A stretch of DNA of 64,000 nt from NCBI GenBank assembly GCA_963170055.1, contig CAUJGJ010000444.1, positions 6,243,118-6,307,117 of the forward strand, written 5' to 3'. The translations under genes and the position numbers were made by a program. The notes beneath the pieces are model-generated. The model saw only the letters and a list, made by a program, of their open reading frames with translations, did no database searches and was not told the DNA's origin. Shown piece after piece: positions 850 to 40,254 of the stretch; position 1 is the stretch's first letter; the number at the start of each line of letters is the position of its first letter. This stretch comes from Halisarca cf. caerulea (taxonomy: Eukaryota > Porifera > Demospongiae > Chondrillida > Halisarcidae).

Positions 850-2907
850 TTGCTCAAAATGGCTGCCCATGGTAGACAAGGAGAAATACCAGCAGGAGAT
901 ATTGATAACGAGACTTCAACGCAAGCTTCCACCAATTTAAAGGCTTTGGGCCCACCTGAGAAGAAACTAAAGGCTATTTGTACCGGACGATTCAAGGCGT
1001 CGTGGCAGTTGCCAGCGCATATCACTAGGAGTGCAAAAGGCGAGTCGTTTGCTTATTGTAGTCTCTGTAGAAGCGATTTTAGTGTATTGCACGGGGGCTG
1101 AATGACGTTAAGCGTCATGTTCAAGGAACGGTGCACAAGAAAAGGCTGAAAGATGTTGAGCAAAGCGCACAAATCGGTGATTTTTGGGTGAGTCGAGTGT
1201 AGGAAAGTCAAGCCGTTCGGCACACACTTCCAAAGTTACTGCAGCTGAATTAGCAATGGTTCAATTCATTGCTATGCATAACCTTCCCTTTTTAGCTGCA
1301 GACCATCTTACGGATTTGTTTCCTAAAATGTTTCCCGATTCCAAAATTGCTGGGGATTTTTCATGCAAGCGCACTAAGACTCGATCTATCGTTTGTCATG
1401 CTCTAGAGCCTCACTTCAAAAAGCCTTTAGTTGAGTTAGCAAAGGTAGCACCTATCAATGTACTCTGCGATGAATCAAATGACAGAGGAGATGCTGAGAA
1501 GCTGCTCACTGTTCTTGTGCGTCTCTATGAGCCAACTGCTGGCAAAATTGCAACAAGGCATCTAGATACCGTCGGCATTACTGATTTTACAGGGTTGGGT
1601 ATATTCACTGCCATCAAATCTGTTCTCGATGCATATCAGATACCCTTTCATAACGTACTCAGCTTTACTTCCGATACATGCAATGTAATGAAAGGTGCCA
1701 GAAAGGGAGTAATAGCACACCTTAGAGAAGTGCAACCGAACATCATTGATGTTCATTGTATTTGCCACTTGGCAAATTTATGTGCAAGAGCAGCTGTGAA
1801 GGTAATTCCCCTAAAGGTCGATGATTTCTTGGTAGATATTTTTTACCATTTTCATTACAGTGTGAAGCGTGTCGTGTCACTAAAAGAGTATGCTGATTAT
1901 TGCTGTACTGAGTACAAGACCATTTTGAAACATGCTCAAACCCACTGGCTTTCTTTGGAGAGATCCGCCTTGCGCACATTGGACATGTGGGAACCCCTCA
2001 GCGAATACTTTATTACCCACCCTGATGCCAGTAAATCTGGCAAGGTCAAAGGTATAGCAGAAACCTTTAAGCAGCCATTAACCAAGGCATGGCTCCACTT
2101 TCTTTGCAGCATCTTCGCAATCTTAAATAAATTCAATTGTCTCTTCCAAGCATTGTCAACTTCAAAACCATATTGTCGTATTACATTAAGCCGGATATTT
2201 TGAGGGTTCCTATAGATAAGCTGATTGCTGCTGATCAAGACATTACTAATCCAACCAACTACTTGGGAAGGGAAGACATTTACATTGGAGATGCAACACC
2301 TCTTAGCCTTCAAGCAGCTACTGAAGAAGAGGTGACTACATTCTATGAAGGCGTTATTGCCTTTTATGAAGCTCTTGTGAAGAAGCAATTTAAATTGTTT
2401 CAATTTGGGTCGCCAATATTGGGAAAACTTAAATTTCTTGATGTGACCCAATGTCAAGATGTGAAAAGAGCAACATTTAATGCCATTTATGAAACCTTCC
2501 CCATACATTTTGATAAGGATCGAGTTGAGATGGAATACCGTGAATTTGCTATTGATGACACCATTTCACAGACGAAAAAGGATTTTAAAGAAGCATTTGA
2601 TTTTTGGTTGTATGTTAAAAGCCTCACATCTCCAATGGGGGAAACTAGATACGAAGAGCTGGCCAATCTTGCACTCTGCTTACTGTCCATTCCCACATCA
2701 AATGCCGACTCTGAGCGTGTGTTCAGTCTTGTGAGGAGGATCAAAACAGACTTTCGATCCTCTTTATCCACACAAAGTGTCTCATCACTGATATCATGCC
2801 ATTTCAACAACCTGGGACACTGTTGTGAAATGACAAGTTTTGACGAGGACTTGCTAAAACAGGTGAAATCATGCACTTCAGCTGCCATGAAAGAAGGTTC
2901 CAAGTAG
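850..2907 (+). pseudogene. hAT-superfamily transposase (ZNF862-like), frameshifted
   Basis: This is a broken hAT transposase, an enzyme that excises and inserts its own element in the nucleus. It starts at the ATG at 859 with a BED/TTF-type zinc-finger region (W..P.HI, FAYCSLC, then H..G..H after a one-base frameshift near 1098). A second frameshift lies near 1185. The RNase H-like core follows, with FTSDTCNVMKG and VHCICHLANLCA. A third shift, probably with a small deletion, lies near 2140. The C-terminus keeps the hAT dimerisation signature SNADSERVFSLVRRI at about 2698-2745. The family usually runs 600-900 residues and the summed pieces fit that. Terminal repeats and an 8-bp target duplication could not be placed with certainty. 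Family assignment is strong; it cannot be active. Confidence 0.85.
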
Positions 2908-3324
2908 CTAGACATTAACAAAGTTCACATTTAGGATGTCATATTAGTGATTACATATCATGGAACTTGAGTTATTATATATATATAGAGTAGGGAATGT
3001 GATTACCAATGTACTGCAGACTATATTATGTAATATATAGCTGTATTAATTTTTTGTTTTAATAAACTTACTGTATCTGAACTATCATGCATAATATTGT
3101 ATACTTTGCTTTACTATACATCATGTATTACTACCTGATTCATTTTTGATTCCCTGTTAGAAATGGATAACCAATGGCATATTATAGCAGTGTAGTGTAG
3201 TCTATACTGCCACAAAATTGCATTTACACATGCAGACATAAGAATACTGAAATGACTTCAAAAATACTGAAATGAGCAACCACTACTACTGAAATTGATA
3301 CTTGGAGGTTGGCAGTACTGCCAT

Positions 3325-3400
3325 CACTATCATCCCTGTGCAGAGGTAAATTTCATAAGCTCTAATCCCTGTGCAGACACACAGACTGCCTTCACCAATG
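3325..3400. repeat. Minisatellite, right of the hAT remnant
   Basis: Two units beginning 'atccctgtgcag' and one 'acagactgccttcaccaatg' match the array at 540-725 in the same orientation. This implies the hAT element landed inside, or was later flanked by, a dispersed repeat. Confidence 0.5.
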
Positions 3401-3402
3401 TT

Positions 3403-3827
3403 CGACAACCAGCTATCATTTGCCAGTGTACACACAGCGATGTGGCTCCAGAAAGTGTCCTTGTAAGAAAGCTGGATCAGCTTGCGGATTAGGATGCCAT
3501 ACTGGAAGGACATGCTGCAATACAACTGGCCAAAGCAAGCAGAATAGCATGACTTCGACCAGCTATGAAGACTTGACAACAGAGACAGACAATTTCTGGC
3601 TTGATATTGGTAGTACTCATTTATCCAGCAAGAGACAGTCACCTGCCTGGCTAAATAACCACCACATGACAGCTGCACAGTTCTTACTGAAAGAACAACA
3701 TCAACATAATATTTCAGTTATGCAGTCACCTATCCTTCAGTGTACCAGGGAATGGAGGAGACCAAGCTTTTCTGGGCTTGGTATACAGTACAGAAAACTT
3801 GCAGTCTCGCATGCGATGGTTTGGTGA
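3403..3827 (+). pseudogene. Cys-rich (CXC-like) protein fragment
   Basis: An open frame carries QRCGSRKCPCKKAG followed by C-x3-C-x5-CC, which resembles the CXC/tesmin-like cysteine motif found in many transposon-linked proteins of basal animals. About 70 residues later comes WLNNHHMTAAQFLLKEQ. Similar WL..HH..AA..LL segments precede Ulp1-like peptidase regions in mobile-element proteins; that comparison is from memory and is inference. No catalytic region follows and the frame stops at 3827. It begins right at the end of the minisatellite, so it is probably a truncated copy. Function is not established. Confidence 0.4.
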
Positions 3828-30829: not shown

Positions 30830-32083
30830 GTGATGTTCTCTGCAGAAACTGCCCTTGGAATGCTCCTAGAGTCAGACAGTGACGTTGATTGGTGTGATTC
30901 TGCTGATGACATGTCTGGTGAGAAGGGTGAATGGCCTTCAGGCAATAACAGCCTTTTAGCAGCCACAAACCAAATGTGTGATCCCCTTGATGTAGCACAG
31001 GATGAAATGCAGTCCTCTGATGATTATGACACAACCACCCAGTCTACCATCCTGTTGTTGGATCCACCGACTAGCCCAGTTCTCCCCTCTATCAATGATC
31101 CCTCAACCATAACAAGGGCAGGTGCACCAGCTCTCGCAACCATGCCCAATCCAGCCTTGTCCACTCCTTTGAGCATAGCAACTGCACTAGACACATTGCA
31201 TACCATGACCACAACTACTTCTCTCTCAGCCACTCCCTTGGCTGTAGCAACTCCACTGACACCAGCTCCTTCCATCACTCCCACTTCTCACTCAGCCACT
31301 CCCTTGGCTGTAGCAGCTCCACTGACACCAGCTCCTACCATCACTCCCACTTCTCACTCAGCCACTCCCTTGGCTGTAGCAGCTCCACTGACGCCAGCTC
31401 CTACCATCACTCCCACTTCTCACTCAGCCACTCCCTTGGCTGTAGCAGCTCCACTGACACCAGCTCCTTCCATCACTCCCACTTCTCACTCAGCCACTCC
31501 CTTGGCTGTAGCAGCTCCACTGACACCAGCTCCTTCCATCACTCCCACTTCTCACTCAGCCGCTCCCTTGGCTGTAGCAACTCCACTGGTCACACAAACT
31601 CCTTCAGCCACTTTACACACCACAAGTGCACCCACTCCTCCCCCAACCACTTGGCTGTAACAACCCCATGCCACTACATCTAGCAGTGTCTATGTTGCAC
31701 CCATGGCATTCATATGACATGTTGGCCCAACATGCCAGCTGGAAAGTGACAGTACACCACTTGATTTTTTTCTTACCATCTTCGGTAAGGACAGCTTTGC
31801 CCACATTGCAGAGCAAACAAATTTATATGCTGCACAAAACCCTCCATCTGCACGCTACAGCTGGGTAGCTACTACTGCAGAGGAGATCATGCTACTCATT
31901 GGAATAGTTCTGGCTTCGGGAGTACATCGACTGCCATCATGGGAAGACTACTGGTCACGCAATCCCATACTAGACACACCAGGCATTATCATGGGCATGC
32001 CAATAGTATGCTTTAAGGTACTGATGAAATGCCTCCACTTGAACGACAACACTGCCATGCCAGCAAGAGGACAACCAGGTTAA
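30830..32083 (+). pseudogene. PGBD-like transposase, N-terminal part
   Basis: It begins with an acidic leader (SDSDVDWCDSADDMSG), then 5-6 copies of a 22-residue Pro/Thr/Ala repeat (SATPLAVAAPLTPAPTITPT, 66 bp units, 31219-31590). After a frameshift around 31650-31760 the conserved domain starts (FFLTIFGKDSFAHIAEQTN, EEIMLLIGIVLASGVHRLP, DYWSRNPILDTPGI, CLHLNDN). It ends at AARGQPG-like ARGQPG where the second piggyBac inserted. PiggyBac transposases cut and paste at TTAA without scars. The leader repeat is unusual for the family. Confidence 0.8.
31219..31590 (+). repeat. 66-bp coding minisatellite
   Basis: About 5.6 tandem units of 66 bp, in frame, beginning 'gccactcccttggctgtagc'. Units are nearly identical, so expansion is recent relative to the rest of the gene. 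Confidence 0.9.
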
Positions 32084-32327: not shown

Positions 32328-35300
32328 ATGGCGTCTGCGCGGAAGCTTTTTAGCACGCAGGAGGTGATAGACTTCTTTGAAAGCGATGTTTTGTCGATCG
32401 ATTGTGATTCGAGCGCTGAGGAAACGTTCGATGAATATATTGGAACGATGCTACCAGATGAAGATGATCGCGGACATTCTGAAGACGACATTCAGGAGAG
32501 TTCAACACGTTCCACACCATCGCAGCTCCATAACGATCTGCAAGGAGTACCAGAAGATATTTTAACTTCCAAAGACAGCGAGGAAAGTCAAGAGGCGCAC
32601 ATTTCCGTACCTTCCCCTCAAAACAGCATTCCTGATACCATTGATCCTTGGGGAAGCTCTGATGATGAATGCGGCGCTGATGATCTCGAAGCTGATGAGT
32701 CCTCAACGGTTAGTTATATGTCGGATTCTACAGAAGATACTAGATCAGAAAGTGATAGTGCATCTGAAACTAGCAACCTTGCAACTAGTACAGTGAGGGG
32801 ACGGGGGAACAGAGGAATTCGAGGAGGGAGCAGAGGATTGAGACGAGGGAGCAGAGGAGCAAGACAAGGAAACAGTGGAAATGTCCGTGGTTCAGGAAGG
32901 GGTATGAGAAGAGGGCACTCGCGGGGATCTAGGGGTCACACTGGTAGAGGATTGTCTGTGAGCTTTCAGTCACTAATTCCACCATCAGCTAAGTCTATCA
33001 GCATTCCTGATGCTTGTTTCCAGGAACCGGAGGAATTTATGCCCATTAGAACACCAGGGCCACACATACCATATAGTGATGATAGTGATGTATCTGGATT
33101 AGATCTATTCCGCCTCTTCATTGATGATGAAACGTTAGACCGTTTGGTTACCTCCACTCTTGCTTATGCTGAAAGTAAGAAGGATCACAAGCGCAGTATG
33201 TATCAGCGTTTTATGAAACAAACACTTGACAGGGACGAGATGGCACGTTACATTGGAGTATTGTTACTGCTTAGTATCAATTCTACTAGGAACTACCGGC
33301 AAGCCTGGAATCCCAAGAGCTCCCAGGTTAGTTTGGAATATTTGAACAATGCTATACCATTGTATTATCACATTTTGACTATACACTGTCAGGCTGTTAT
33401 TTTTGTGCAACTACATGTATGTGTACTGTATAGCATTGTCGCATGATGTACATATCACCTAGGAAATTTATGAAATATATACACACTGCGTTAGTTGTGC
33501 TGTGTATAACAGGGGATGGATATACAGTACACACTGCCTTCGTTGTCCTCACAGGTACTTATTAGATTGATGGACTTGATGACAAGGAATAGATTTGAGG
33601 CAATTAGTTCCTTTCTTCATATGTGACAGGCTCTGAGAAAAGGGCCCTTATGTGAGCAAAACTAGATTGCGATTTTATTCGCTAAGATTAAAGGGCATGG
33701 ACTAAGGATCAGAATGAAACTTGAACCGCAGCTATAGCTCTTTCCGTTCCTATGATATTATGACTTCAAAGTGCGCAATACTGTAAACGTTGATTTCGAG
33801 AAATCTGTGCCGAACATTTCACTTCCGGGTAAAACATGGAGTTCCGTACTCTGCCTCCGTATACTCGGCTGCGGAATGGTAATCACATTGCTGCGCAAGC
33901 TTCGTAAAGAAAGAAAAGGCCACGTACGAAGGACAAGAAGCTGTAGTTACTGTGAAGGGCCGCGCTAATACAAGAAACGGTGCTTCCTGCTGAGGGCCGT
34001 GATCAATACAAGAAGAGGACGAGGTTAGTTATAGTTGTCAAGTTAGCTTTACTAGCGCGTTTAGAACGCTGCTACAAAACATTAGGTAGAACAAGGGTAA
34101 ATACAACAACACGAAGCTTAAAAAGATATGATTATAGTAATGTGAGCGGATGTAGACAGAGAGCAAAGTGTCTTGAAGAAATGGTTTGTACACAAAGTGA
34201 AGCAACTACACTTTTTTCTTGCAGATTCGTCGTCGTTTAGGAGCAGCTACATCTTCAACGTTATTGTCCTCGAGAGCAGGAGTGCTTCGACCTGGCTTTG
34301 GAACAGATGGCAAGGGACACGTTGTGTCTTTATCGTGATCAGGACAGAAAGGACGTATCTGTTCATACAAATACCACTGACGCTCTGCACTCAAGCCTCG
34401 TGGTGGTATTACGTCAGGCAAATTGTCCTTTTCAGGGGACCAGGGCTGTTTCAGCATGTTAACCTTCACCTCTGTGGTATCGGAGTGCTCTTTGATGAAA
34501 ACAACCCCAGGTTGGGAAGAGGACATACGAAAATGATGAATCTTTTTGATTCCAGGGAGCTTTTTGAAGTGCGGTACAAAGAAGGTCGTCCAGTCATACG
34601 TTGGAACTATTGTACTGCCGTCTTCTCGAGAAACCAGCTGAACAAAGTTGCACTCAGCTGATTTGTTGGTTACATCTGCTATGGCTTTCAAGCTGCCAAC
34701 CTTTGTTCTCTTGTAGAGTCGTTTAAAAAGCCCAAAACACCAATCGGGTGAAAATTTGGTATGGCCTACGACGAGAAAGGAGAGGGTGACATCAGTATGT
34801 CGTTCAGTGAGTGTACGCCACAAAAGATAGTGCAGCATAGCATTATTTTTGTTCTGGCCAGTACAGTTGTCAGCCGTCAGGTACACTTCTTTCTCACCCA
34901 AACTATGGTGGTCAAAAAAATAGTGCAGCCTACTGATCACAGCATTCGCCCCCTTTCCACAATCTCCGGCCTCATCCGTGAGAAAGTTGATTTGACGAGG
35001 CATTGCCTCACAGTTTACTCCAAAGATGGTACATTTTCGAGGTGTGAGGAAATAAATAGGCCCAGGCTGAAGTGGATCTGATGGGTAATGTACCTGTTGG
35101 GCGTAATCAAAGGAGTAGTGCACCTTGATCGAACTGACTGGTGCTACAGCTGAGAATGGTGATGGTGGAGTGAACTGACCATTGGTGGTGAAGTGCACTT
35201 TAACTGAAGCCTGACATTCATCACATGTCGTCTTATAGTGTGACCTTTCAAGGTGGACAACACGCAGATGTTCCTGTGCTTCCCTGATGACAAGCGTCTT

Positions 35301-38300
35301 CTCCTCCTCTGGACGATTTGCTGACCGAAGAATAGCTGCACTATTCTGATGACACTGCCAACAGAGATCTGACATTGGCTTCATGATCACAACTGAAGGC
35401 AACAATGTCTTCCACAGCTTGCAAAAGGTGGAATAAGCAACCGTGTGGACAGTTTCATCCTCTTCAGCAGCTACATGGTAGACTCGCCAGATGCCTCTCT
35501 TTGAAACACTTGATGGAAGAAGCTTTATGTCAGTACGACTATATCCTGGTACTCTTCCTGGCAAAAGCAAACCATTCTGCTCGGTATAATTGAGGAGAAA
35601 TCGTACAACATACTCGATGGACGAGAAAGAGAGGGCATGATGAGGTTTCCTTTTGGTGTTGCCATGGATACGTGGTGTGAGGCCATGTGCTTTCAAGCTT
35701 TTCATCAAATTTTTGAGTCTTTTCTCACCTATAGTGTGCAGGATCCGAAACATCTTCACACATACCTGCTTGTCTTGGTAGTAATAAGAAACTCTGGGCC
35801 TCTCACGTTCTCGTGGAACATGCCTGGATGCAGTCACTACACCTGGACTGCTGTTGGTATGGGCGTGCAGCTGCCCTAAAATCACCATATCCAGCTCACT
35901 CCTAGTGAGCTCTGCGCAAGACTGCCTAGCTGACAGGATGTCTTCACATGATAACTGTGTACAGCACTGTTTCCCATCACCACCCTTTTTGCATCCACAT
36001 CCAGCCATCACGAAGTCTGATACAGTTTTTTCCTCCTGAATGTCACTGGGAAGAGTCTCAAGGGGGATATCAAATTCAACTTGTGCTGTCTGCATTGCCT
36101 CACGAACTCGTTCTTCTGTGTCAACCAGCCCATCAAGATCATCCTCTTCATCCTCCTGCTCAGTATCACCACCCGCTTCAATATCACCAACACCACCGGA
36201 CTCAAGCCCACCAATACCACCGGTCTCAAGACCATCCCTACCACCACTGACACCACCGGATTCAAGACCACCTCTACCACCACCAACACCACTGAACTCA
36301 AGATCACCCCTACCACCATCAACACCAGCGGACAGAAGACCACCACTATCACCACCAGACTCAAAACCATCCCTACCATCACCAACACCACCAGACTCAA
36401 GACCATCCCTACCACCACCAGATTCAAGATCACCCCTACCACCACCAACACCACTGGACAGAAGACCACCACTATCACCACCAGACTCAAGACTATCCCT
36501 ACCATCACCAACACTACCGGACTCAAGACCATCCCTACCACCACCGACACCATTGGATTCAAGATCATGCCTACCACCACCACCAACGGACTCGAGATCA
36601 CCCCTACCACCACCAACATCGCCGAACTCGAGATCACTCCTACCACCACCAACACCACTGGACTCAAGATCACCACTACCACAACCGGACTCAAGACTAT
36701 CCCTGACACCACTGGATTCAAGACTACCACCAACACCAACACGTAACTCAAGACTACCTGGATTGCTGGGGACATCTGTAACATAGAAAATAATATTCCG
36801 TAATTGTATTTATTTAATATTATTTATTAATATTAATACATGTATTATGAAATACTTAATTTTGCACAATACCAGCAGTGTACATTGGCTTAGAAATACG
36901 TATGCTTGAGAAAACCAAACACCATTGCATCACATGTACCTAAGTCAATTTCCATCTCTTCATCATCAGTGTTGTCTTCAGAATCATGTGCAGAAGAGCT
37001 AGGATAGCTAAAAAAATCCCCTATCACCTCCAGCATCCTTTCCTGGTCCTCAGAAGACAAGTGCATGATGGAGTTTATTGTTTTAGCAATTCCTCTGTTA
37101 GTGGCTGCCATCCTGATCGTGTTATTCAGCTGTCAAGTGTGAAATTGTAAACTTGTAATGGTTGCTAAGTAACACAAACAGTTGGAATGTTGTGGTTTCC
37201 GTTTACTATTCGTAAATTTTCGGCGTTACATTTCCGGTAATCCGCTATACGGCGAAGAAGCGCGTGGACCGTGACGTTTCTAGGAGGCTGTTCGATGGGA
37301 ACGAAACGACATAGGCGCACCAAATTTGGTATACAGGTAGGGGAAAGACCCTAGTTCACTATGATGTCATAAACTAAATTCGGTCTAAGTATGACGTGTT
37401 TGCGAATTTGTGGGTGTACTGAACAATACGCGTTTGCGCGTTAAGGGCCCTTTTCTCAGAGCCTGTCACATATCGTGATACCAGCAGAAGAAGATCAACT
37501 GGCTGGAGATCCATTGAACAAGATTAGACCACTTTATGACAGGATGAAAGCCAAATGCCTCGAATACTACCAACCATTGCGGGAGCTTTCTGTTGATGAG
37601 CGCATGGTGAAGTCTAAATCTCGCACCCACTTTCGGCAGTACATTAGAAACAAACCCACTAAGTGGGGTTTCAAGTTTTGGGTGCTTGCCGACCCAACTG
37701 GTTTCACCAGTAATTTTGAATTGTACCAAGGTAAAAGAAGATCCACCACTCCATCTTCCCACGGTTTGGCATATGATGTTGTAATGGACTTGACGATGCC
37801 TTTTCATCACCAAAACTATCTTATCTTTTTTGACAATTTTTACACAAGTCCTACACTTATGGTTGCTTTGCAGGAACATGGAATCAGCTCAACAGGAACA
37901 CTACGTGTTTCAAGAACAGGAGTACCCGAAGCTGTAAAAGAGCTAAATTCTGTACTGAAGCGAAGGGATGTACCTCGTGGAACTGGGTACTATATTCGCA
38001 GTTCTTCTGCAGTATTTGTATGCTGGAGAGACAATGATTGTGTCACCGTTGCTTCAAACTCCTATCCAGGACATGTCGATGGAACAGCAAGGCGAAAGAG
38101 CAAGGACCAAATGGGTGTCCACTCGGCAGTTGACGTCCCTCTCCCTTCTGCTATCCGTCGTTATAACCAATTCATGGGTGGGGTTGATAAGTCAGATCAA
38201 CTTATCAGCTACCATCGGGTCTTACGTCAAACAGTACGATACTGGAAGACCCTTTGGTACCATCTCCTGGAAATCAGCATAAGCAATGCATTCATCTTCC

Positions 38301-38734
38301 ACAAGTGGCGTCTATTAGAAAGCGGTGCAAAGAAGATTCCAACCATGAGTACCTTTTTGGATGGTGTTGTCTTAGCCATAGTCAAAAGACACAGCAACCA
38401 AACAGCCCAGCCATGGGACACTTTTACTATACGGCATGGAAGCAAGCCCTATAGCTTTGAGCAAAGGCGAAAATGTGCAATTTGTAGAAAGAAAACTGTC
38501 AGAAAGTGTCCTGATTGCCCCTTTTGCCCACCTTTGTGCCAGTTAGTGGACAGAGACTGTCACACTGAATGGCACAGTCATGCCTTTGGCGCAGTGCGAC
38601 AATCGTGGTTCTACCAACAAAGAGCGCGACTAGAGATGTCAAGGATGCCAAATTTGACAATTTCATCTAGAAAACGGGCGGGTAGACCATCTGGAGTGAA
38701 AAACAAGAAGAGGAGATCTGTGTTTTCAAAATAA
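32328..38734 (+). CDS. piggyBac transposase 2 (775 aa, split by insertion)
   Basis: Exon 1 is 32328-33326, exon 2 is 33555-33622 joined to 37474-38734. The intron 33327-33554 is GT-AG. Without the insert the frame is open from ATG to stop (333 plus 442 codons). Residues 1-150 are acidic, 155-215 are a Gly/Arg/Ser-rich stretch (GRGNRGIRGGSRG), and the DDE domain follows with DERMV, FFDNFYTSP and GGVDKSDQ as the three Asp sites. The C-terminus has the usual Cys-rich RING/PHD-like finger (CAICRKKTVRKCPDCPFCPP) and a basic tail. It would act in the nucleus on TTAA. The insertion after SSFLHI disrupts it now, so it cannot be made as drawn. Confidence 0.9.
34206..37111 (-). CDS. Candidate transposase, DUF7869-like (913 aa)
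   Basis: Exon 1 is 36940-37111, exon 2 is 34206-36775; the 164-bp intron is GT-AG and phases agree. Exon 1 encodes a small acidic leader (MAATNRGIAKTINS, DNTDDEEMEIDLG). Exon 2 opens with about 16 copies of a 12-residue Gly/Ser/Glu repeat (SGGVGGGRDGLE). Then come a Cys-rich finger (AGCGCKKGGDGKQCC, later CWQCH and CDEC) and a core with SFDYAQQVHYP, YLTADNCTGQNKNN and HTKFSPDWCFGLFKR. The D-DNC-D spacing suggests an RNase H-like nuclease. From memory this matches the family named DUF7869, common in cnidarian and sponge genomes; that name needs checking. A basic tail ends it. Because it is the only gene of a TIR element, a transposase role is inferred. Confidence 0.75.
36170..36765 (-). repeat. 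36-bp coding minisatellite in the candidate transposase
   Basis: Tandem units of about 36 bp encode 12 residues on the minus strand (GGVGGGRDGLES). Open frames on the plus strand and in the other minus frame across the same stretch (Pro-rich, Val-rich) are by-products. Confidence 0.9.
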
Positions 38735-39161: not shown

Positions 39162-40254
39162 GATAAACTGTTTAAACTTTGTAAATTATTGGAGGAAATA
39201 AATAAAAACAGCTTAGCCATGTACGATCCACATAAGGAGGTTTCAATTGATGAAGCGATGGTCCTATTCAAAGGTCGCAGTCTGTTCAATCAATACATGC
39301 CACAAAAACCGATCAAACGTGGTTTTAAATTATGGTTGAGATGCGATCCTCACAATGGCTTCATGAGTCAGTGTGAGGTCTATTCTGGAAAGGATCCGAA
39401 TGGCAGCGTGGAGACACTACTAGGAGTGAAGGTTGTCAAATCTCTTTCTAAGGAACTTGAAGGAAAAGGATACTTTCTTTTCTTCGACAATTTATTTTCG
39501 ACCATGTCACTTGTTGAAGAATTGCTGGACAAGAACTTTCACTACATTGCTACCACAAGGGCAAACAGAAGAAATTCGCCAAGAGAATTCAAAAACATGG
39601 CGGGGGCTGAACAAGGAAATGAGCAGGAGAGACTCCAAAACAGCACAGTGCGGCAAAGTGCAATGTATTGTATGGAAAGACAACAGGTGTGTGTCCCTCC
39701 TCAATACCATCACCGGTTTGCAAGCCACTACAACCATCATGAGGAGGAACGAGGATGGAACAAGAGTTACAATACCTTGCCCAGAAGCAGTTAATAAGCT
39801 ATACAACACATACATGGGAAGGGTAGACCTTGCAAATCAATGCAGAAAGACGTATAGCTGCTCCCGAAAGTCCAACAAGTGGTGGCACCGACTATTTTTC
39901 TTTCTTCTTGATGCCAGCGTTGTGAATTCATATATTATTGCCTCTGAAACAGCCAACATCCAAAATAGATCGCTAAAAGAATTCCTTTTGGAGCTAGTTG
40001 AAGAGCTCTTGTCGCAGCACTGCTCCAGAAAACGACCAGGACATACAGAAATAGGACCCCCCTCCGTCCGTTTTAACGAAAGACATTTTCCAGACAGAAT
40101 TCAAGCGAAGCGCTTGCGTAGTTTGCAGCCAGAACAATCAAAGAAGGCGTGTATCCTTTGGATGTGTCGACTGCAAGAAGGAGAATCCTGTTCCACTTTG
40201 TCCTGTTCCTTGTTTTCGTATTTATCACACAAAATGATAAAGCACCTAACATAG
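39162..40254 (+). pseudogene. PGBD-like transposase, C-terminal part
   Basis: Continues the gene broken at 32083: DKLFKL, YDPHKEVSIDEAMVLFKGR (first Asp), KRGFKLWLRCDP, YFLFFDNLFSTMSL (second Asp), then after a frameshift near 39580, RVDLANQCRKTY. Where other families have MGGVDKSDQ, this reads MGRVDLANQ and keeps the Asp. The end is KKACILWMCRLQEGESC. No full Cys-rich finger. The ORF at 39433 begins out of frame upstream of the shift. Confidence 0.8.

Follow-up and report, generated by a model that had tools for sequence, protein, structure and literature searches.

A DUF7869-encoding DNA transposon with 4-bp AT-rich target duplications, most likely a Sola2 member, in the sponge Halisarca cf. 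caerulea

The Sola superfamily of DNA transposons was reportedly defined and aligned by Bao et al. in 2009 and by Yuan and Wessler in 2011; its Sola3 members use TTAA. Sola elements are described as having a DDD transposase (three Asp), 4-bp duplications, a length of mostly 2-9 kb and ends of 11-1124 bp, with hosts among bacteria and metazoans (PMC10741241). The Sola2 elements of the slime moulds Dictyostelium fasciculatum and Polysphondylium pallidum show 4-bp AWWT duplications including ATAT, AAAT and ATTT, a transposase of 888 aa, elements with Fanzor1 proteins and ends of 12-21 bp (PMC3627910). Here we analyse a 3847-bp element within a stretch of 64,000 nucleotides from the sponge Halisarca cf. 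caerulea (GenBank assembly GCA_963170055.1, contig CAUJGJ010000444.1, positions 6,243,118 to 6,307,117). This whole stretch is called the window, and all coordinates are window positions unless a locus is named. The element has inverted ends, 4-bp duplications and a single apparent gene encoding a protein with the Pfam domain DUF7869. It is probably an autonomous cut-and-paste transposon and most likely belongs to Sola2.

An earlier note on this DNA had given the coordinates and length of the element, its perfect 28-bp inverted termini and the ATAT on both sides, and these proved exact on re-reading:

33623..37469, no strand: whole element, 3847 bp; homologous copies stop at identical bases
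33619..33622, no strand: left copy of the target duplication, ATAT, 4 bp
33623..33650, plus strand: left terminal inverted repeat, GTGACAGGCTCTGAGAAAAGGGCCCTTA, 28 bp, with AAAA at bases 16-19 counted from the tip
37442..37469, minus strand: terminal inverted repeat at the right end, 28 bp, complementary to the left one at every base
37470..37473, no strand: right copy of the target duplication, ATAT, 4 bp

As ATAT is palindromic, it is weak evidence of a duplication by itself. The sequence around the element consists of the two parts of a broken gene, and since DDE_Tnp_1_7 (Pfam) was found in both host pieces, the element sits in a gene for a piggyBac-type transposase:

32328..33326, plus strand: host exon 1 of the piggyBac-type transposase gene, its end inferred from a GT donor
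33555..33622, plus strand: start of host exon 2, broken by the element, placed by the frame-joining test
37474..38734, plus strand: remainder of host exon 2, with DDE_Tnp_1_7

Joining 33555-33622 to 37474-38734 gave 1329 nt, equal to 443 codons including the stop, with 0 internal stops, and the frame was broken when the second ATAT was retained in the joined sequence. The claim that excision with loss of one ATAT restores the piggyBac frame is thereby confirmed. The proposed 4-bp duplication is borne out further by the source genome, where it was exact in 10 of the 11 DUF7869-type insertions tabulated with both ends, among them the second lineage described below. One of these insertions, the MITE L074 of a sister subfamily (see below), is flanked by AAAT/AAAT, which is not palindromic and therefore marks a true 4-bp duplication.

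The gene of the element lies on the minus strand and comprises two exons of 172 and 2570 nt, that is 914 codons including the stop, for a protein of 913 aa. The reading frame and the GT-AG intron agree with the single two-exon gene described before:

36940..37111, minus strand: exon 1, beginning at ATG, from the reading frame
36776..36939, minus strand: GT-AG intron, from the splice dinucleotides
34206..36775, minus strand: exon 2, bulk of the protein plus stop, with the DUF7869 match inside

All remaining open reading frames of at least 90 aa within the element overlap this gene in other frames. Residue numbers given below for the window protein refer to the 629-aa ATG-started frame of exon 2. 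A Pfam scan of the element protein returned DUF7869 (PF25273) alone, at residues 378-535 with an E value of 1.7e-16, which agrees with the family suggested in the earlier note. The first part of exon 2 (36100-36775) is of low complexity, a long repeat in which Gly, Asp, Leu, Glu and Ser abound, and two relatives, P0026 and P0007, contain stretches rich in Gly or Asp at the same place.

A genome search of the kind proposed with the original observation found inverted ends of the 28-bp type with 4-bp duplications around further DUF7869 copies. The source genome contains three more copies of the window element, 93-99% identical by piece. Both ends were readable in two of them, with ATAT/ATAT flanks; the third, in which the left end is retained next to AAAT, stops matching short of the right end. 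The 20-base tip, with up to 2 mismatches, had 21 matches in the genome, the window's two included, compared with 1 for a backward control. These tip matches led to a sister subfamily with ends closely related to those of the window element. It comprises one element of 3449 bp (flanks ATGT and ATAT), where similarity to the gene is split into segments of 39-76% identity that lie in different frames, and six gene-less elements of 592-1215 bp (miniature inverted-repeat transposable elements, MITEs), which gave no tblastn match to the gene. The 4-bp duplications are exact in all six MITEs, being ATAT in four, AATT in one and AAAT in one. For the remaining tip matches a partner end was not found within the stretch examined. 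In the 11 insertions tabulated from the source genome, 21 of 22 flanks fit AWWT, with ATGT as the exception.

A second lineage in this genome, L025, encodes a DUF7869 protein of 702 aa in one open frame, 38% identical to that of the window. Its element measures 2637 bp and has inverted ends that start with GTGAC, with GGAAAATGTGGGTTCGAGG common to both ends, and ATAT/ATAT flanks. Whole-genome comparison found other copies across the L025 stretch. An apparent empty site, at C369:12387394-12387707, was identified by coordinates only; there the flanks adjoin with a 9-base overlap and the element is absent. A script seeking ends around 17 DUF7869 loci of the genome (two pairs overlapping) found none, a null that says little because the same script also missed the ends of L008 and L025, which were found otherwise. 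A similar end search on one further stretch, largely N, found nothing. On contig C369, which accounts for 14 Mb of the 194-Mb genome, we counted by hand 91 of the 150 listed DUF7869 matches (at least 169 were found); some of these may be pieces of one gene.

Relatives were also present in bacteria. A scan of GTDB contigs yielded 35 pattern matches, and 11 of the loci encode relatives with 31-42% identity in the best segment; the sources include Desulfocicer vacuolatum, Desulfobacterales, a Legionellales bin and Thiomargarita nelsonii. Several loci come from metagenome bins, whose contigs can be misfiled; the contig of Desulfocicer, 148 kb long, stems from an isolate. Paired inverted ends surround the gene in 8 of the 11 loci. 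The duplications are exact in three of these eight elements (L091 AATT, L093 AAAT and L099 ATTT; the gene of L099 is split over two frames). AAAA stands at bases 16-19 of both ends in seven of the eight, and in 17 of the 19 elements tabulated overall, the exceptions being L095 in both arms and the MITE L078 in one. Among the 11 insertions and 19 elements, copies and MITEs do not count as independent families; the lineages that are separate from one another are the window group, L025 and the bacterial elements. DUF7869 elements are rare in bacteria: among 395 genomes of Desulfocicer's phylum, a match was present in one, that of Desulfocicer itself. Eleven stretches of IMG/VR viral contigs fit the pattern and 0 of them encode a relative, and a search of phages and plasmids with the Desulfocicer DUF7869 protein gave no match.

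Two alignments were used to examine the protein. A1 has 63 rows, namely the window frame and 62 of 120 listed matches (892 overall) chosen for coverage. The 31 rows of A2 are made up of the window and L025, 14 relatives from the search for A1, seven of the 11 bacterial loci, and eight of 120 listed matches of another search. For 13 of the A2 rows a source is known or inferred, namely for the window, L025, the seven bacterial loci, Beggiatoa (P0220), Halichondria, Dysidea and Gigantopelta; 18 rows are without an organism name and were assigned to groups on the basis of similarity. Named matches in the search for A1 include Halichondria panicea (the best, with 59% identity), Dysidea avara and Gigantopelta aegis. 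In the A2 tree the 15 rows labelled bacterial, 8 of them named, all fall on one side of a single branch with support 100/99. Three acidic stations had been noticed in the window protein, and the Asp residues in them turned out to be invariant in all 31 proteins of A2:

35106..35108, minus strand: codon of D330, first putative catalytic Asp (SFDYAQQ), 61/63 rows of A1 and 31/31 of A2
34869..34871, minus strand: codon of D409, second putative catalytic Asp (ADNCTGQNKNN), 63/63 rows of A1 and 31/31 of A2
34743..34745, minus strand: codon of D451, third putative catalytic Asp (GHTKFSPDW), 61/63 rows of A1 and 31/31 of A2

The spacing is 78 residues from D330 to D409 and 41 residues from D409 to D451, with D330 N-terminal to the stretch matched by Pfam. 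Cys33, Cys35 and Cys44 are invariant across the 63 rows of A1.

The DUF7869 gene is very probably the transposase of the element, as judged from the way in which it travels with inverted ends in the window family, in L025 and in 8 of the 11 bacterial loci. The same pairing, in two genome lineages and in bacteria, gives good support to the suggestion of the earlier note that the protein moves its own element. A passenger role of DUF7869, with the ends moved by a transposase encoded elsewhere, has one element in its favour, L095: between its inverted ends an open reading frame (2308-3627 of that locus) resembles by eye an ISL3-type transposase. We consider such a passenger role highly improbable, as no gene other than that of DUF7869 is apparent between the ends of the window element, the pairing of gene and ends recurs in the lineages named above, AAAA is in register in those elements except L095 (and one MITE arm), and the three Asp are invariant in the 31 chosen proteins.

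According to the mechanism that we propose, the N-terminal part of the transposase, Cys-rich and helix-turn-helix-like, would bind the inverted ends with their first base G and AAAA at bases 16-19. A DDD centre formed by D330, D409 and D451 would then excise the autonomous element, whose single apparent gene encodes this DUF7869 transposase, and join it to an AT-rich AWWT target staggered by 4 bp, giving the 4-bp duplications. The window element would have entered an older piggyBac-type transposase gene in this way, and the MITEs of the sister subfamily are presumably mobilised in trans.

Comparison with models of known transposases gave sub-threshold matches. No Pfam transposase family matched the scanned proteins better than E 0.01, no NCBIfam model better than E 0.004 for the 63 relatives or 0.03 for seven bacterial proteins, and the best PHROGs value for three proteins was E 0.12. 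PDB sequence searches with the window protein and the 63-row profile as queries returned no significant match. NF033594, the NCBIfam model of ISNCY-family transposases, had sub-threshold matches in 16 of the 63 members of A1; the three that were located all lie in the N-terminal half, look helix-turn-helix-like by eye and are far under the curated cut-off. These three proteins show no match to the model over the putative catalytic part.

Membership in Zator/ISAzo13 was also considered, as was membership in other known superfamilies, Academ and piggyBac among them. DDE_Tnp_ISAZ013 (Pfam) has weak matches below threshold in 3 of the 63 members of A1 (best E 0.022) and in one of seven bacterial proteins, L093 (E 0.018, under the cut-off, residues 405-505), and by alignment the L093 match spans D409 and D451. 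This likeness stands against duplications of 3 bp, as stated for both Zator and ISAzo13 by Kojima and Bao (2023, PMC10045372), versus 4 bp here. ISAzo13 was rejected as a close relative, since the hhalign profile comparison was non-significant (P 0.17-0.23). Academ is elsewhere given a duplication of 3-4 bp. PiggyBac membership does not agree with the data, as the element has AWWT flanks and not TTAA, and DDE_Tnp_1_7 occurs in the host gene only, the element protein being free of any piggyBac match. A further paper lists 3 bp for Academ and TTAA for piggyBac (PMC5199201), at variance with the 4-bp AWWT duplications found here; the comparison with Academ covers the printed duplication length. 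It appears very remote that the element belongs to any of these superfamilies.

The features that could be compared fit published Sola2 and Sola, imperfect bacterial duplications excepted, and for this reason Sola2 is favoured. As in the slime-mould Sola2 elements we found AWWT 4-bp duplications, inverted ends and a long transposase (913 versus 888 aa); unlike those, with their Fanzor1 proteins, the window element lacks an apparent second gene, and its ends have 28 bp instead of 12-21 bp. The length of 3847 bp and the 28-bp ends are inside the ranges printed for Sola, the three putative catalytic Asp would fit the stated DDD, and relatives occur in bacteria (11 loci) as well as metazoans, as published for Sola. 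The idea that the element represents an undescribed transposase superfamily is, on these published descriptions, probably wrong.

Several points weigh against this interpretation. Placement in Sola2 rests on published feature descriptions and not on a sequence comparison with a Sola2 protein or its ends, and for this reason we hold membership to be probable and no firmer. Mobility is deduced, the element being known here from its sequence. E375 and D243 are likewise invariant in the 31 rows of A2, so that the Asp triad was picked by motif and order. An RNase H fold of the DUF7869 protein stays putative, and the direct comparison with a profile of 38 ISAzo13 proteins was non-significant (P 0.23 and 0.17). 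No convincing ends were found in 3 of the 11 bacterial loci, namely L092, whose gene lies at the edge of its contig, L096 and the fragment L098. Among the bacterial duplications, those of L090, L094, L095 and L097 are one base off and that of L089 two. The tips of the bacterial elements were placed by eye, with the inverted match and the flank as guides, which makes the fit of 15 of 16 bacterial flanks to AWWT (exception ATGT) partly circular; in the five elements with unequal flanks, 9 of 10 flanks are still AWWT.

The DUF7869 elements could instead form a superfamily apart from Sola and from every listed one, present in bacteria and animals. DUF7869 is a Pfam domain of unknown function, the transposase models gave nothing better than the values above, and none of the bacterial-eukaryotic transposase pairs named in the introduction of Kojima and Bao (2023, PMC10045372) was matched here. 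Among the papers searched none uses the term DUF7869, and a search for strings of the conserved motifs gave matches that were all unrelated judging by title. On the other side, these elements agree with Sola2 and Sola, as far as the printed descriptions extend, in duplication length, AWWT, size, host range and the three Asp. We regard a separate superfamily as unlikely next to the favoured Sola2 membership.

Two further features of the window were noticed. Just downstream of the interrupted host gene, at 39189-40254, is a second piggyBac-type transposase (DDE_Tnp_1_7), which is frame-broken. At 30830-31660 an open reading frame contains several tandem repeats around PLAVAAPLTPAPTITPTSHSAT; it had no Pfam match at E 0.1.

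What is new here is that DUF7869 is linked to inverted ends and to bacterial relatives that share the end layout. A domain of unknown function thereby gains a testable role as a transposase, which would explain many unnamed proteins with the ADNCTGQNKN motif; the bacterial elements with the same gene and end layout are without a name in the NCBIfam models. As the copy in the window has an intact gene and perfect ends, a direct excision assay is possible. If the element belongs to Sola2, Pfam and NCBI can label the family; if not, it is a new superfamily. In that doubtful case, bacterial insertion sequences and animal transposons of a separate superfamily would share one end layout (first base G, AAAA at bases 16-19, AWWT), and a new bacterial-eukaryotic transposase pair would be added.

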